DNA from: Ardenticatenales bacterium
GTDB taxonomy: Bacteria; Chloroflexota; Anaerolineae; Epilineales; Epilineaceae
Assembly: GCA_020853525.1 (NCBI GenBank)
Contig: JADYYS010000045.1
Location: forward strand, 1 to 48,599
Length of the DNA: 48,599 bases
Direction of reading: 5' to 3'
Shown: one piece after another, positions 25,920-33,541 of the stretch
Numbering within the stretch: the stretch's first letter is position 1
Layout of the letters: each line of letters opens with the position of its first letter
Notes under the pieces: generated by a model
The model's database searches: none
What the model was told of the DNA's origin: nothing
The model's input: the letters and a program-made list of their open reading frames with translations, nothing else
Made by a program: the position numbers and the translations under genes

Positions 25920-28193
25920 ATGACGCGTGCCGCACAGTTCGTCGCCGCCGCCGTCGCCGTCGCGTTCGGCATCGGCGCCTGGCGCGTGTTGGACTCCGCG
26001 GGCAGCGCGTTGCCGCCCGATCGCGTGCCGATCGTCGTCGAGGACGATCTCATCCAGGTCGGCGGCTCGCTGGGCGATTTCGATGTGGCCGGCGACCGGA
26101 TGATCCTCGTCCTCGGCAAGCGCGTCCTCGTCGGCCGGCTTGGCGGGGCGGGCGATTGGGCGACGGTCGGCGCGTCGCCGCCGGCGGACGACGGGGTCAT
26201 CGACGTCGACATCCTCGACGGGCGCTGGGCCGTCGTGCTGCGCGGCGCGAACATCTGCACCGTCGACTTGGCGGCCGACGGTCCGGTGTCGTGGGACGGC
26301 TGCCAGCCCCTTGCCCTGCCGGCGGTGCACATGATGGGCGACGGCGCATGGTCCGTCGTCGAGCTCCAGGACGGCGGCGTCACCGTGTTCGAGAACGTGA
26401 ACGGCGCGCTGCGCCGGCATGACCCGGTCTTCCATCCCGCCATCGCGTTCAGCGGCTTCGCGCTCGTCGGCCGCCACGTCGTCATCCTCGGGCCGGGCGG
26501 CGAGCTGTGCGCCTTCGCGCTGCCCGATGGCGCGCCGCTGAACTGCGCAACGCGCACCGGCGTGAACGGGCTGTACGCCGTCGGTGACCGCGTGGCCGCC
26601 TACACCACCACCGCGATCCAGTTCGACCGCCCGGACGCGCTGGCCGACGCGCCGGCATCGACGCTGCCGCTGGCGGCGCCGCCGACGACGCTGAGCGGCG
26701 GGCACGGCGTGCTCGGGCTGCAGACGGACGGAGAACTGGCGATCGTGACGCCGGGCGGTGCGGCGCCGGTGCGGACGACGCACAGCATCGAGGGCCGGCT
26801 CGGCAGCGTCGCCGTCGCGGGCCACCGGACGTGCTGGTCGCGTGCGCTCGGGCGCGGGGACCGGGCGTACGGCGGGATCCGGTGCGTGGACGGCGCGTCG
26901 GGCAGGGTGCTCCTCAGCCTCGTCACGCCCGGCATCGTGGAGCACGCGCTCCAGGTGGACGGAAGGCTGGCGCTGGTCGACGCCACGGTCGGCGTCGGCT
27001 TGGTCGATCTCGACAGGTCGACGATCACGCTTCTCTCCCCCGGCGGCGTCCTCCGCACCGCGCACGGCCTCGATGTCTCGGACGACGAGGTGGCGGTGGC
27101 CTTGGGCGACGACGGGATCGCGCTCATGAAGCGGCCGCTGCGCGACCTGAGCGAGAAGCGCATGCTCTGGCGGAACGACGAGCCGTGGCAGGCCGTCAGC
27201 GTGGCGATGGACGGCCCCCGCGTCATCGCGGCCGATTCCTCGGGCTCGATCTTCGTCGCCGACCGTGCGACGGGCGCATCGACGCAGCTGTTCGAGGTCG
27301 GCGGCTTCCCGCTGGAGATCACGCCGTCCACGGCCGGCGTCTTCGTCAGCAATCGGGACAACGGCCTGTCCCTCATGACGCGCACCCCAACCGGCGACTA
27401 CGCGTGCTGCACGACCGTCCTGACCGGCGTCGTGACCGACGTGGCCCTGGAGAACGACCGAATGGCGATCGCGCGCGGCCCGGAAGGCGTGACGCTCGCC
27501 TCGTTGGAGGACGCGGCAGCCGGCCGGATCGACGGTCCGGCGATCCCGACGGCCGCGACGGCGCTGGGCGTGGCCTGGCTCGGCGACCGGCTCGTCGTCG
27601 CCGAGGCGAACGGCTACGTCGAGGTGTTCGACGCGCCGCCGGGCGGCGCGGTGGCGCGGCGCGGCCTGCGCTGGGTGGGCGGCGTGCCGGAGCGGGTCTG
27701 GCCGAACGGCGCCGGCCTCGTCGTCGCCTCCGAGTTCGGCGGCGTCACCGTCGTTCCGGACGTGACGGCGCTGGCGCTCGATCCGAACGCGCGCCCGCCC
27801 GACGTCGACGCCGGGATCGCCATGTACGAGCCCCTCGACCTGGCGGCGGCGATCGGCCGCGGCGATGTCATCGCCATCGACGTCCGGCGGCCGGAGGAGT
27901 TCGCGCAGGAGCACATCCCGGGCGCGCGCTCCGTGCCGCTGTCCGACGTGCCGCGCTTCGTGGCCGAGACCGACCTCGGCGCGACGACCGTGGTGCCGTA
28001 TTGCATGAAGGACTTCCGCGGCTACGCTGCGATCAGCCTGCTCCAGACGAGCGGGGCGCCGCGGATCGGCGCGATCGACGGCTTCGGGCTGGCGGCGTGG
28101 AAGGCCGCCAAGCTGCCGCTGGCCGGCACGACGGGCGGGCTTGACGATGCGGCGGCGCTCGAAGCGCTGCAGAAGGAGATCGACGGGCGATGA
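25920..28193 (+). CDS. exported propeller protein with C-terminal rhodanese domain
   Basis: The 757-residue protein has an N-terminal signal or anchor (FVAAAVAVAFGIGAW). About 600 residues of repeated beta units follow ('gdrmilvlGkrvlV', 'GRWAVVLRGANICTVDL', 'GLDVSDDEVAVALGDDGIAL'), similar to LVIVD/PQQ-like propellers. A rhodanese domain occupies about 635-740 (VIAIDVRRPEEFAQEHIPGA). Its active loop is C695-M-K-D-F-R, a correct six-residue loop starting with the catalytic Cys. Such domains handle sulfane sulfur or oxidised thiols; here it would face outside the membrane. The stop overlaps the next ATG (ATGA), so it is coupled to the ferric-reductase-like gene. TATGAT at 25886-25891 is a likely -10 box. 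Confidence 0.8.
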   Translation: MTRAAQFVAAAVAVAFGIGAWRVLDSAGSALPPDRVPIVVEDDLIQVGGSLGDFDVAGDRMILVLGKRVLVGRLGGAGDWATVGASPPADDGVIDVDILDGRWAVVLRGANICTVDLAADGPVSWDGCQPLALPAVHMMGDGAWSVVELQDGGVTVFENVNGALRRHDPVFHPAIAFSGFALVGRHVVILGPGGELCAFALPDGAPLNCATRTGVNGLYAVGDRVAAYTTTAIQFDRPDALADAPASTLPLAAPPTTLSGGHGVLGLQTDGELAIVTPGGAAPVRTTHSIEGRLGSVAVAGHRTCWSRALGRGDRAYGGIRCVDGASGRVLLSLVTPGIVEHALQVDGRLALVDATVGVGLVDLDRSTITLLSPGGVLRTAHGLDVSDDEVAVALGDDGIALMKRPLRDLSEKRMLWRNDEPWQAVSVAMDGPRVIAADSSGSIFVADRATGASTQLFEVGGFPLEITPSTAGVFVSNRDNGLSLMTRTPTGDYACCTTVLTGVVTDVALENDRMAIARGPEGVTLASLEDAAAGRIDGPAIPTAATALGVAWLGDRLVVAEANGYVEVFDAPPGGAVARRGLRWVGGVPERVWPNGAGLVVASEFGGVTVVPDVTALALDPNARPPDVDAGIAMYEPLDLAAAIGRGDVIAIDVRRPEEFAQEHIPGARSVPLSDVPRFVAETDLGATTVVPYCMKDFRGYAAISLLQTSGAPRIGAIDGFGLAAWKAAKLPLAGTTGGLDDAAALEALQKEIDGR

Positions 28194-28954
28194 ACGACTG
28201 GACGTCGGTTGCGCCCGGCGGCAGCGGCGCGCCCGGGCAGTGGCTCTACCTCTCGACGATGGTCACCGGGCTCGCGCTCATCTTGCTCATCGGTCTGCAG
28301 ATCGTCCTCGCCGCGACGGCCCGACTCCCGCGGGCGGCGTGGCTCATCCGCCGGCTTCCGGCCGCCCGCCGCGCCCCGGCCGCCGCGCGGGCGGTCGAGG
28401 CGCGCGATGCGCACCGGCTGCTCGGCCGGCTGATCGTCGCGCTCGTCCTCGTCCATCCGCTCCTCTACCTGTCCGCCGTGACGGTTCGGATCGGCCACTG
28501 GGCACCCGATAAGCTCTGGCACGCGTTCACGGATCGTTCGTACTACGGCAACTCGCTCGTCCTGGGCCTGGCCGGCGTCGCCGTCGTCGTCGCGCTCGGC
28601 ACGGCCGCGATGCGGCTGCGGGTGCCGCCGAGCTGGCACGGCTTCGTGCGTGTCGGCGTGCTCTTGGGCGGCTGGCACGCGCTGCGGATCGGGTCGCACG
28701 TGCGGGACGGGGTGGGGGGGGCGTTGCTGTGGGTGGGGATGGCGCTCATCGCGCTGGATGGCGGGGTGCGGTTGGGGGTGGGGGTGCGGCGGTGGTGGCG
28801 GCGGCGGGCCGAAGTGGCGTCGGCGGCGGCCACGGCGGCGGCCACGGGGGCGGCCACGGGGGCGGCCACGGGGGCGACCACGGGGGCGACCACGGGGGGC
28901 CGCCCCTGCTGCTACAATCCCGCCCGATGGCCCCAACCCCCGCACCGCCGTTGA
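28190..28954 (+). CDS. ferric-reductase-like transmembrane haem protein
   Basis: The 254-residue protein has about five transmembrane helices. The pattern of four His fits two b-haems in a ferric-reductase/MsrQ-like bundle: H75 and H89 in one helix (AHRLLGRLIVALVLVHPLLY), H150 and H163 in another (WHGFVRVGVLLGGWHALRIG). It would pass electrons across the membrane. Coupled translation with the rhodanese-propeller protein suggests that protein is its external partner. The last about 40 residues come from a 12-bp minisatellite (ATGA repeats) and run 28 bases into the xerC-like gene; the original stop may have been lost by repeat slippage. Confidence 0.8.
   Translation: MNDWTSVAPGGSGAPGQWLYLSTMVTGLALILLIGLQIVLAATARLPRAAWLIRRLPAARRAPAAARAVEARDAHRLLGRLIVALVLVHPLLYLSAVTVRIGHWAPDKLWHAFTDRSYYGNSLVLGLAGVAVVVALGTAAMRLRVPPSWHGFVRVGVLLGGWHALRIGSHVRDGVGGALLWVGMALIALDGGVRLGVGVRRWWRRRAEVASAAATAAATGAATGAATGATTGATTGGRPCCYNPARWPQPPHRR
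28821..28900 (+). repeat. 12-bp G-rich minisatellite
   Basis: About six diverging copies of a GGCCACGGGGGC-type unit (variants GGCGACCACGGG). They code Ala/Thr-Gly-Ala repeats at the C-terminus of the haem membrane protein and lie immediately before the xerC-like gene. The runs of G could form quadruplex structures. Confidence 0.85.
28913..28918 (+). promoter_or_regulatory. candidate -10 box close to xerC-like start
   Basis: TACAAT ends only eight bases before the ATG at 28927, which has no ribosome site. Transcription from it would give a leaderless or near-leaderless mRNA. Confidence 0.45.
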
Positions 28955-29964
28955 TCGAAGCCCCAGCGCCCGGCGCGCCCCCCGCGGACGCGCCGACGGC
29001 ACGCCCGCTGCCCAGGCCGCTCGGCGCAGCGCTCGACGCCTATCTGCGCTACCTGAAGGGCATCCGCAACGCCTCGCCTTACACCATCCGGAACTACGGC
29101 ACCGAGATCGGCGAGGCGCTGCGCTGGCTCGTGGACTCCGGCGCGCGAAGCTGGGCGGACATCGACCGGCCGCGGCTGCGGGCGATGCTGGCGGCGCCGC
29201 ACATCGCAGCGCTGGCACCGGCCTCGGTGGCGCGGCGGATCAGCGAACTCCGCGCGTTCGGGCGCTACCTGGTGCGCGAGCACGGCCTTCCGAGCGACCC
29301 GTTCCGCGGCATGCGGGCGCCGAAGCTCGCTCAGCACTTGCCGCGGGTCCTGTCCGTCGAGGAAGTCCTGGCGCTGCTCGACGCCCCGCCGCCCGACGGC
29401 CCGCGCGGCCTGCGCGACCGGGCCGTGCTCGAGACGTTGTACGGCGGGGGGCTGCGGATCGCCGAGCTCGTACGGCTCGACGTCGGCGCCGTGGACGTGG
29501 CCGGGCGGCAGATGCGCGTCTTCGGCAAGGGCAGCCGCGAGCGGATGGCCCTCTTCGGGGCGCCGTGGGCGCTGGCGATGACGCGCTACCTGGCCGCCGG
29601 CCGGCCGTGGCTGGCCCGGCAGGCCGGTCATGCCGCGCGGCCGTCCGACGCCGTCTTCCTGAACCGCCGCGGCGCCCGGCTCGGCCCGCGCAGCGTCCAG
29701 CGCCTCGTGGCCGCGTACGGTCGCGCGATCGGCCGCGAGGACGTCACGCCGCACGTGTTGCGCCACAGCTTCGCCACCCACCTCATGGACGGCGGTGCCG
29801 ACCTGCGCTGCGTCCAGGAGCTGCTCGGCCACAAGAACCTCCAGACCACCCAGATCTACACCCACGTCAGCCAGACCCAGGTCCGCGACGCTCTCCTGAC
29901 CGCCCACCCACGCGCCGGCCGCGCGCGCCCGCCCGCGCCGGCCGGCACGCACCCGCCGAGGTAG
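28927..29964 (+). CDS. XerC/XerD-type tyrosine recombinase
   Basis: The 345-residue recombinase has a core-binding SAM-like domain (about residues 33-125: ALDAYLRYLKGIRNASPYT) and a catalytic domain. The residues are R177 (GGLRIAEL), K201 (FGKGSRER), H276-x-x-R279 (TPHVLRHSFATH), H302 (LLGHKNL) and nucleophile Y311 (TQIYTHVS). It would resolve chromosome dimers at dif or act as a site-specific integrase; the housekeeping type is favoured because no phage or integron genes lie nearby. A Pro/Ala-rich 30-residue extension at each end is unusual. The start overlaps the upstream gene by 28 bases, and the Xaa-Pro peptidase gene starts four bases after the stop. Confidence 0.93.
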   Translation: MAPTPAPPLIEAPAPGAPPADAPTARPLPRPLGAALDAYLRYLKGIRNASPYTIRNYGTEIGEALRWLVDSGARSWADIDRPRLRAMLAAPHIAALAPASVARRISELRAFGRYLVREHGLPSDPFRGMRAPKLAQHLPRVLSVEEVLALLDAPPPDGPRGLRDRAVLETLYGGGLRIAELVRLDVGAVDVAGRQMRVFGKGSRERMALFGAPWALAMTRYLAAGRPWLARQAGHAARPSDAVFLNRRGARLGPRSVQRLVAAYGRAIGREDVTPHVLRHSFATHLMDGGADLRCVQELLGHKNLQTTQIYTHVSQTQVRDALLTAHPRAGRARPPAPAGTHPPR

Positions 29965-31210: not shown

Positions 31211-32605
31211 ATGGACGATGCGACCGAGCTCGAGCGCCTGAGCCAAGGGTATGACGACGAGGGCGACGGGCCGCCGGCCACGGCCCGGACGCGCGCCCGC
31301 TTCAGGCCGCCGCCCGCGTGGGGCTGGCCGTTCGCCGTCGGCGTGCTCCTCGGCTGGCTCGTCATCGGCTGGTGGCTCTGGCCCGTGGCCTGGACGGAAG
31401 CGCTGCCGGTCGATCTGACCGCCGCCGACCGCGCGACCTACGTTCGCCTCGTCGCCGACGCGTACGTGCGCCGGCCGGACGCCGATCTGGCCGCCGAACG
31501 ACTGGCGTCTTTCCCGGCCCCGACGCTGGCCGCCGTGCTGAGCGCCCAAGGCGCCGACGTCGCCGATCCGGTGGCCGCGGAGAACGCGCGCCAGCTGGCC
31601 AAGGCCCTGGCTACAGCGGGGCGACTGGACGCCGCCGTGCCGCCCGCCGTCGGCGCGACGGGCATCGTCACGACGACGGCGGCGCCGGCGCGGGGCGGGG
31701 CGCTGCAGCGGCTCGGTCGGCCGTCGTTCTGGCTCGGACTCGTGGCGCTCCTCGCCCTCACCGGCCTCGCCCTCGCCGTTCTGCGCCAACCGCGCACGCC
31801 GCTGGACGATGTCCGCGCGCGCGCCAAAATGCGCCGCCGTGCGCGTTTGGCGGCGCGCGAACGCGGAACGGCCGACGGACTGCCGGGTGAGACCGGGGCG
31901 TTGTGGCTCGAGGACGCGGATGGGTCGCCGGTGTTCGACGCGCTGACGCCCGACGGGCCGGCTGCGGACACGGCTGCCCCGTCATCCGCGACGCGCGTGA
32001 CACCGCAGCGCACCGGCCGGCTCCACCTGCCCGAGCTCCCGCCGGACGACACGGCCTCCGTTCCGCTGCCCCGCGCGCCCTGGCAGCGCTCCGGCGAGGC
32101 CGGGCTCGGACCGGGCAAGCTCGATTTCGGGGGTACGGCGTCCGTCTTGTACGACGGCGCGGACGAGCACTTCTACCAGACGTGGCTGGTGTACGACGAG
32201 CGCGAAGGCCTTTCGGCCAGCATCAACATCCAGGCGCGCAAGGTCGGCAGCCTGACCTCGCTCGACGTCTGGCTGTACGACCGCGACGTGACCGGCGATG
32301 CGGCCGGCCCGCCGAAGGTGGCGGTGCTGGCGCAGGCCGCCAGCCAGGAAGCCCACTTGCGCGCGCTGCTGCGGGATCGCCGGATCCTGCCCGCCGTCCC
32401 GGGCGCCCAGACCGTCCTCGAGGTCGGCGAGCTCTCGCTCGAGGTGACGGTGACGGACGTCGCCCCGCCGCCCGAGGCAGGCAGCCTGAAGCTCGACCGC
32501 GTCCGGCTGGCGCTGACCCCGTTCCGCTATCCCCAGCGGCCGGACGACGGCGTTGGCGACGACGCCGTGCGGCCGCCGCTGCAGTTCCGGCGGGACGACG
32601 GGTAG
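31211..32605 (+). CDS. two-helix membrane protein of unknown function
   Basis: The 464-residue protein has an acidic cytoplasmic N-terminus, a Trp-rich helix (WPFAVGVLLGWLVIGWWLWPV), an alpha-helical loop of about 100 residues, and a second helix (FWLGLVALLALTGLALAVLR). A basic stretch follows, then a Pro-rich linker and a C-terminal beta domain (YQTWLVYDEREGLSASINIQ; VLEVGELSLEVTVTD). I do not recognise the family. I chose the ATG at 31211 because GGAGG lies seven bases upstream; an ATG at 31193 lacks one. It is the last gene of the xerC-like operon. Confidence 0.75.
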   Translation: MDDATELERLSQGYDDEGDGPPATARTRARFRPPPAWGWPFAVGVLLGWLVIGWWLWPVAWTEALPVDLTAADRATYVRLVADAYVRRPDADLAAERLASFPAPTLAAVLSAQGADVADPVAAENARQLAKALATAGRLDAAVPPAVGATGIVTTTAAPARGGALQRLGRPSFWLGLVALLALTGLALAVLRQPRTPLDDVRARAKMRRRARLAARERGTADGLPGETGALWLEDADGSPVFDALTPDGPAADTAAPSSATRVTPQRTGRLHLPELPPDDTASVPLPRAPWQRSGEAGLGPGKLDFGGTASVLYDGADEHFYQTWLVYDEREGLSASINIQARKVGSLTSLDVWLYDRDVTGDAAGPPKVAVLAQAASQEAHLRALLRDRRILPAVPGAQTVLEVGELSLEVTVTDVAPPPEAGSLKLDRVRLALTPFRYPQRPDDGVGDDAVRPPLQFRRDDG

Positions 32606-32808
32606 TTAGGGCGTGTATGCAAACCCAGTTCCGGCAGCTAAAGCTGGCCGGCTAGAGGCGCCCCTATTGGGTCGCCATGGTGCCCGCCGTCGCGGGCACC
32701 CCGAGGTTTGAAGCGCCCGCGAAGGCGGGCGCAATGGCCGAAGGCCATCAGCCGGCCGGCTTCAGCCGCCGGTCTTTTCCGTGGCCACCCTCTGCAAACA
32801 CGCCTTAG
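32606..32808. repeat. MITE/REP-like element with terminal inverted repeats and hairpins
   Basis: The 203-bp segment fills the gap between two convergent genes. Its ends are 16-base inverted repeats (32606-32621 and 32793-32808, 13 of 16 matching, cores GGCGTGT and ACACGCC). Inside are hairpins GGTGCCCGC/GCGGGCACC (32679-32700), GCGCCCGC/GCGGGCGC (32713-32732) and ATGGCC/GGCCAT (32734-32748), plus imperfect ones near 32630-32650 and 32750-32775. There is no ORF. A target duplication is not evident. It may be a non-autonomous mobile repeat that now serves as a bidirectional terminator. Confidence 0.7.
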
Positions 32809-32812
32809 GCCG

Positions 32813-33541
32813 CTACGCGGCAGCCGGTGGCTCGACGCCGAGGATCGCGTCGACCGCGTCGCGCGCCGGGCATCCGAGCGACCGCTGCGTGCCGCCCATT
32901 GCCAGCGTGACGGACGCAGGGCCGGCGACGACCTTGCCGACGATCACGGCGTCGTACCCGTCCGCGGACATCTGGTCGACGCAAGCGTTGGCGACTGCGG
33001 GCATTGCCGTGGCCAGCAGCGAGCCGCTTGACTGGACCTCGAGCGGGTTCAGGCCGACCGCATCGCAGATGCGGGCGGTGGCGGCGTGCAGCGGCACCGT
33101 CCCGGCATCGATCCACAGCCCGACGTCGGAGGCACGTGCGATCGCATGACAACCACGCGCGAGGCCGCCGTCGCCGAGGGCAAGGCGGGCGCCGAGCGCG
33201 GGAGCGTCGTTCCCGGCGGCGGCAGTTGCGTCGAGGCGGGCGGCGACGGCGGCGACGTCCCAACCCGGTCCGTCCGGCCATCCTGCGGCCTGCACGAGGT
33301 CGGACGGCGACACGCGGCCGCCGAGCCACGCGGCGCACGCAGCCGCCAGGACCGCCGCCCCACCGCGCCCGATCCCCCCGACGAGGACGATCGACTCGCC
33401 CGGCCGCGCCGCGCCCGGCCGTGCGGCGTCCGGCGGCAGTCCGGCCGCGGCGACGTGGTGGCGGAGGGCGCGGGCTGCGGGGAGAGAGGGGCGGTCGATG
33501 ATCGGGTCGGCCGCGTCGCGGGCGGGGGATGGGGCGTTCAC
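32813..33541 (-). CDS. AIR-synthase-related C-terminal domain protein
   Basis: The 242-residue protein resembles the second half of PurM/HypE/ThiL-type enzymes. The segments GDGGLARGCHAIARASDVGLW, then DAGTVPLHAATARICDAVGL, then NPLEVQSSGSLLATAM follow the AIRS_C pattern ('eGGLa..l.e.a..sgvG..ld...vP......i....gldPl...sSG.ll.av'). The N-terminal ATP-binding half is missing; in its place is an Ala-rich region. It may be a stand-alone AIRS_C protein or a degenerate HypE. The GTG at 33541 is preceded by a GCATGCTAC element like that of other minus-strand genes here. The stop lies four bases from the hairpin element. Confidence 0.65.
   Translation of the reverse strand: MNAPSPARDAADPIIDRPSLPAARALRHHVAAAGLPPDAARPGAARPGESIVLVGGIGRGGAAVLAAACAAWLGGRVSPSDLVQAAGWPDGPGWDVAAVAARLDATAAAGNDAPALGARLALGDGGLARGCHAIARASDVGLWIDAGTVPLHAATARICDAVGLNPLEVQSSGSLLATAMPAVANACVDQMSADGYDAVIVGKVVAGPASVTLAMGGTQRSLGCPARDAVDAILGVEPPAAA

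Follow-up and report, generated by a model that had tools for sequence, protein, structure and literature searches.

ERIC and Correia-type repeats are intergenic imperfect palindromes of 100–200 bp and in this resemble the element described here, but they have no Y1 association and their sequence is different. Members of the IS200/IS605 family and their PATE-type derivatives combine a Y1 transposase with structured ends, as does the system described below; those ends carry a single subterminal hairpin, whereas here a complex cloverleaf accompanies a nearly single-copy tnpA gene. Recognition of a hairpin and cleavage at its foot are established for both TnpA_REP and TnpA_IS200. REP, REPIN and BIME repeats, served by TnpA_REP (RAYT), are likewise dispersed extragenic palindromes flanking a single-copy Y1 HUH transposase gene, and they share with the present repeat the form of an inverted doublet with terminal hairpins (PMC6006769, PMC3116915, PMC3733652). 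The cloverleafs differ from them in being multibranched and 100–145 nt long, as against a 20–40 nt hairpin, in having no GTAG/CGTC foot, and in a Y1 protein that belongs to the IS200-like subclass 1.2 (Y---Q--HH) rather than to class 2 (Y---NP).

Quentin et al. 2018 described TnpA_Y1 subclass 1.2 by the motifs DH[IV]H, WQ and Y---Q--HH and a median length of 148 aa, entered it as “REP: no”, noted that copies are few and that end structures of the IS200 type are generally lacking, and gave its range as mainly Cyanobacteria and Bacteroidetes (PMC6006769). A paper of the same line leaves the subclass unmentioned (PMC8266576). We found no listed DNA partner for it in the open-access literature; the novelty of the link proposed here is thus unproven. 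The protein studied here agrees with the subclass in motifs, length (~148 aa) and low copy number, and differs in being flanked by cloverleafs and common in Chloroflexota. A further point of comparison is the IS5-family MITE, which shares its terminal inverted repeats (TIRs) with an IS5-family element, codes for nothing, is flanked by YTAR/CTAG and is present in many copies. All of this holds for the present element, except that what it carries is another repeat, which has a structure of its own and is probably served by a transposase of its own.

In this report, we found that a 203-bp unit in a Chloroflexota genome is two separable elements, an outer and an inner one. The best reading of the system is REPtron-like: cloverleaf repeats and an IS200-like Y1 protein, packed here in an IS5-family MITE. 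More specifically, we assign a probability of roughly 0.78 to the proposal that the inner core is the REP/REPIN-like partner of a subclass 1.2 TnpA and was taken up a single time, as cargo, by an IS5-type MITE.

Anatomy of the 203-bp unit

The window is the whole stretch of DNA that was analysed, 48,599 nucleotides of an Ardenticatenales draft genome (4.27 Mb, 76 contigs). A sequence-only reading had marked out a 203-bp element at 32606–32808, with imperfect 16-bp inverted ends and internal hairpins, filling the gap between two convergent stops. This description stood up to measurement. The coordinates are exact to the base (TTAG + 195 bp + TTAG); the terminal inverted repeat, 32607–32621 with 32793–32807, measures 15 nt and is 87% complementary; inner hairpins were found at 32679–32700, 32713–32732 and 32734–32748, together with a 23-nt inverted repeat (32631–32653 with 32750–32772); and the upstream ORF stops at 32605, the convergent minus-strand ORF downstream at 32813. 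Folded as DNA, the element has a z-score of −7.0, and 0 of 200 shuffles were equally stable. Its parts are listed below, with the strand where one is assigned.

32606–32609: left target-site flank TTAG, present on both sides; consensus YTAR/CTAG
32610–32622, plus strand: left IS5-type TIR, GGCGTGTATGCAA, with its inverted partner at 32792–32804; ends as in the IS5 element of genome G231
32623–32630: left spacer between TIR and core, common to A-type copies and missing from B-type and stand-alone cores
32631–32772: cloverleaf core, 142 nt, REP/REPIN-like, recognised from 31 aligned copies, the fold, the stem/loop contrast, cross-genome covariation and a tnpA neighbourhood elsewhere
32631–32653: 5' half of the closing stem (inverted repeat, fold); can form a small hairpin of its own, also in other genomes
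32657–32676: arm 1 hairpin (fold)
32679–32700: arm 2 hairpin, GGTGCCCGC-CGTC-GCGGGCACC (inverted repeat and fold)
32713–32732: arm 3 hairpin, GCGCCCGC-GAAG-GCGGGCGC (inverted repeat and fold)
32734–32748: arm 4 hairpin, ATGGCC-GAA-GGCCAT (fold)
32750–32772: 3' half of the closing stem (inverted repeat and fold)
32773–32791: right spacer, TCTTTTCCGTGGCCACCCT, whose T-rich start forms a weak terminator-like site with 32754–32774
32792–32804, minus strand: right IS5-type TIR, inverted partner of the left
32805–32808: right target-site flank TTAG, matching the left

The window copy most likely sits harmlessly between its two convergent genes; a side role as a transcription terminator, through the one weak site at its T-rich right spacer, is possible. 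Elsewhere in the window (28729–29964), a gene for a XerC/D-type tyrosine recombinase, with an M24 peptidase gene after it, adjoins tRNA-Gly (28054–28133) and is ordinary.

The element is not single-copy, the outcome by which the sequence-only reading was to be refuted. A genome-wide search, as the sequence-only reading had proposed, found about 40 places in the same genome that match query positions 36–178 (BLAST with the element), and a covariance model adds more. An alignment of these own copies resolved one 142-nt core bounded by two unrelated end types, here termed A and B. The likeness to REP/BIME or to MITE families that had been seen in the sequence is therefore right on both counts, for different layers: the unit has the ends of an IS5-family MITE and a hairpin core that is REP/REPIN-like.

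The cloverleaf core and its Y1 neighbours

Folded as RNA, the core forms a 21-pair closing stem that carries four hairpin arms (−102.9 kcal/mol, z = −8.5). Among 31 own copies, 12 of the 98 paired columns vary and 28 of the 44 unpaired ones (Fisher p = 1e-9). About 17 core copies in the genome have no IS5 ends, and the covariance model recovers some 20 further, more diverged copies, mostly lacking A or B ends, to which locus L038 adds another; “stand-alone” here means that no intact ends are recognisable, and some flanks may be decayed B or A ends.

The same layout recurs, in different sequence, in one genome of the same order (G005) and two of the same class (G015 and G016). Over 66 places in four genomes, standard pairs fill 95.2% of the cells, against ~41% after a one-column shift of the partners, and both-sided changes occur in 43 of 49 pairs, figures that lean towards the model because the alignment was fitted to it. 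When the own genome is taken by itself, both-sided changes are seen in 10 of 49 pairs, with 98.3% of cells paired. Unconstrained folds of the foreign copies give closely related structures. Part of this conserved pairing could come from correction between palindrome arms and not from selection. No match to the exact core pattern was found in the named genomes, an indication that what is specific to the lineage is the sequence rather than the fold; BLAST in relatives returned only a 36-bp fragment, in one genome. A second covariance model (R2) matches 82 of 396 genomes of the class, in 51 of 222 genera (E ≤ 1e-4), with copy numbers that are lower bounds since at most eight candidates per genome were scored. 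Two more distant, cyanobacterial cloverleafs (L203 and L214) are ~104 nt long with two main inner arms; the four-arm form is thus the Chloroflexota type.

The two halves of the closing stem can each fold back into a small hairpin whose loop is usually TGAA (the 5' half has TAAA in the window copy and a TGAA-type loop in most genomes), so that the core reads as an inverted doublet in the manner of a REPIN. At its foot we found neither a canonical GT[AG]G guide nor the GTAG/CGTC tetranucleotide, and the preceding sequence varied.

The sequence-only reading had also suggested looking for a REP-associated tyrosine transposase. The core does flank a Y1 gene in the same genome; by its motifs, the protein belongs to an IS200-like subclass and is not a canonical REP-associated enzyme, which the sequence-only reading could not have seen. 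The genome holds one clear Y1_Tnp gene (C9:35322–35663), placed between two cores in inverted orientation, and one weak match; the several near-identical tnpA copies per genome typical of IS200/IS605 elements were not found in it. The encoded protein of 148 aa, with motifs DHVH, WQ and YIRSQKTHH, carries the subclass 1.2 signature in motifs and length. It matches the IS200/IS605 model NF033573 (65.5 bits, cut-off 55) and gave no match to REP_Tyr_transpos NF047646, for which its cloverleaf-flanked relatives score 24–27 bits (cut-off 80).

We fetched 80 relatives of this protein by similarity from named genomes, so that their sharing of Y---Q--[HR]H (78 of 80) is partly expected. Their hosts are mostly Anaerolineae and other Chloroflexota, with Cyanobacteria, Armatimonadota and Gemmatimonadota also represented. 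Around these 80 genes, cloverleafs are physically concentrated: their density is 2.81/kb within 150 bp of the gene and 0.02/kb at 1.2–3 kb, a ~130-fold difference. A cloverleaf lies within 200 bp in 44 loci, and on both sides in 25, often 10–60 bp from the ORF; 34 loci, many of them cyanobacterial, gave no model match in the table used, which speaks against the link. Model R1, built solely from own copies that are not beside tnpA, also finds matches near tnpA in these loci. Folding that uses no model gives z < −5 in 21–25% of gene-adjacent flanks, compared with 0% of distant control flanks. In G016, the homologous gene stands amid seven cloverleafs within ~1.3 kb. The nearby Y1 genes of other kinds that were examined in G015 and G016 (L166, L167, L171) had no cloverleaf match. 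Genomes G001 and G002 have neither a Y1 gene nor cloverleafs by R1; G002 has two weak R2 matches. Two side observations concern such loci: a DUF72 gene fragment, apparently frameshifted, lies between tnpA and the downstream core at L164:740–1410, and in Candidatus Chloroploca mongolica CRISPR-DR28 repeat matches directly adjoin the tnpA/cloverleaf locus (L195:2654–2787).

An alternative to the REPtron-like reading is that the cloverleafs beside tnpA form the left and right ends of an IS200-type insertion sequence, mobile as a whole, with the dispersed copies as its solo derivatives, instead of a REPtron with a stationary tnpA. The loci with cloverleafs on both sides, close to the ORF, are what such a unit would look like. 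However, one clear tnpA copy per genome stands here against dozens of cloverleafs, and the Y1 subclass has been reported as low-copy and without IS properties (PMC6006769). We consider this alternative unlikely, although it is the strongest of those weighed.

Less probable still is that the cloverleaf mainly serves the host, as a structured RNA or transcript-end element maintained by selection, its proximity to tnpA being secondary. The conserved structure with compensatory changes, the frequent intergenic position and the weak terminator-like site at the 3' end of the core would all fit such a role. The core is nevertheless a strand-symmetric quasi-palindrome, both strands of which fold and score with the covariance model; its copy number is high and variable, it clusters around tnpA, and no Rfam family covers the cloverleafs at the gathering threshold. 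Low-scoring Rfam matches of miRNA type were judged to be chance.

The outer jackets

The A-type ends, YTAG-GGCGTGTnTGCAaA, occur at ~15 places in the genome, where they enclose the non-coding core; all matches to the end pattern but one continue into core sequence or reach a contig end that lies within the core. The pattern TAGGGCGTGTNTGCAAA was found in 12 of 396 genomes of the class, while the reversed pattern, used as a control, gave 0 matches. In G231, of the same class, two such ends bound an 866-bp element (L079) with overlapping ORFs for an IS5-family transposase (NF033580, 318 bits against a cut-off of 110, E = 3e-95; also PF13340 and PF01609). The same ends are found on MITE-sized elements of other lengths in G095, G282, G269, G388, G005 and G289. 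Of 10 own two-ended copies, 8 have TA on both sides, within YTAR/CTAG, and TA likewise flanks the G231 element and most of the foreign MITEs. Judged by their sequence, the A-type ends thus belong to the IS5 family, as shown by the ends shared with a transposase-bearing element and by the TA/YTAR/CTAG flanks. TA is likely the target duplication of A-type copies; a strict 4-bp duplication was rejected, an exact direct match being present in only 4 of the 10. The TAG stop within CTAG may help to explain why copies abut gene ends in a GC-rich genome.

As regards the foreign MITEs, those of G095 (L093, L097, L101; 117–138 bp) and G282 (L089, L094, L102; 96 bp, 12–13 pattern matches per strand) have IS5-type ends around other interiors.

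A search of the window's own genome for an IS5 transposase gave no match, so the present mobility of the 203-bp unit is unproven. An IS5-family DDE transposase that is now gone from the assembly would have moved the unit in trans. Two other sources for the ends were rejected. For an IS630-type origin of the CTAG-flanked ends, no DDE_3 protein was found in the genome; the sole DDE_Tnp_1 element (C35, L078:1324–2532, at a contig end) encodes an ISH3-like DDE transposase, and its TIR, CAGTAGTTCCCGACAG, is unrelated.

The second jacket consists of B-type ends, CTAGTA[GC]-[AC]CCGTCACnnnnCGAnnTGCGGAyGACG. By pattern there are 51 of them, which lead on to the core or stop where a contig ends within the core. 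The genome has at least 26 B copies (e.g. L019, L022–L027, L039), none of them in the window. No autonomous partner of these ends was found, and a search of 395 further genomes of the class did not find them. One A copy, on contig C8, sits at the CTAG of a B copy.

Many B and A copies have one flank with intact CTAG and another in which a middle base is changed to G or C (CTGG, CTCG, CCAG, CGAG). Two more small, palindromic, MITE-like families of ~80–100 bp (L039:470–555 and the flanks of L008, L014, L019, L060, L063 and L065), with ends GTACTCTGTCACTG and GTACCCCGCCACTG, are flanked by CTAG, often lie beside A or B copies and have ends similar to those of family B.

Could the 203-bp unit be an ordinary IS5-family MITE, with the core as its degenerate interior and no link to Y1? 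Its IS5-type ends, its target-site flanks and the recent single clade of its copies (see below) are what an ordinary MITE would show. The core, however, also occurs alone, within the unrelated B ends, in other genomes with different sequence, and beside Y1 genes. The stand-alone cores and the cross-genome covariation already contradict this account, and we regard it as very improbable.

About 30 contig ends fall inside the repeat (e.g. C7, C11, C18, C26, C33, C47, C50 and C55 of G000), which makes it a main cause of the draft's assembly breaks and gives a practical reason for where the draft genome breaks. That the repeat is itself an artefact of assembly or binning, as contig ends inside the core in a draft of 76 contigs might suggest, can be dismissed almost entirely, contradicted as it already is by the many copies with unique flanks on both sides and by the same architecture in G016, a single-contig genome.

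History, mechanism and meaning

A tree built from 48 cores groups 13 of the 14 A cores in one shallow clade with support (96/83 and 100/97), L016 standing apart; ten B cores form another group, and the stand-alone cores lie on deep branches. The bootstrap values are not fully settled, and we claim no branching order among the groups. The simplest reading is an old stand-alone cloverleaf family, one core of which acquired IS5 ends in a single capture followed by a recent burst, with at least one capture by B ends. We infer the order of these events.

The mechanism that we propose under the REPtron-like reading begins with the inner core, in which two half-units in inverted orientation, both ending in a small hairpin, pair as a closing stem around the four arms. 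Most likely, the core is recognised as a folded single strand by the subclass 1.2 Y1 HUH TnpA, which also spreads it; the lagging-strand template is one place where this could happen. By analogy with TnpA_REP and TnpA_IS200, it would cleave and move the cloverleaf, the cut probably falling at the foot of the folded strand. In this lineage, one core would have become enclosed between IS5-family TIRs, giving rise to a MITE, which an IS5-family DDE transposase acting in trans would move as double-stranded DNA into CTAG-like sites; these often coincide with TAG stop codons. A recent burst would then have produced the ~15 near-identical A copies, the window copy among them. The A copies thus probably spread as double-stranded IS5-type MITEs.

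A broader proposition, on which we are evenly divided, is that subclass 1.2 TnpA represents a domesticated single-strand nuclease of wide distribution, acting on multibranched cloverleaf DNA with a closing stem and two to four arms. It would constitute a second kind of REPtron, found in Chloroflexota, Cyanobacteria, Armatimonadota and Gemmatimonadota, whose repeats would spread in two ways, through their own enzyme and as passengers of DDE-type MITEs.

These findings make the cloverleafs a candidate partner for a published HUH class that had been listed without an associated repeat. The link between cloverleaf and TnpA can be tested in vitro with one synthetic oligonucleotide and one small protein. 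Further, the element in the window suggests how a repeat transposed as a single strand can be captured and amplified by an unrelated, double-strand transposon.
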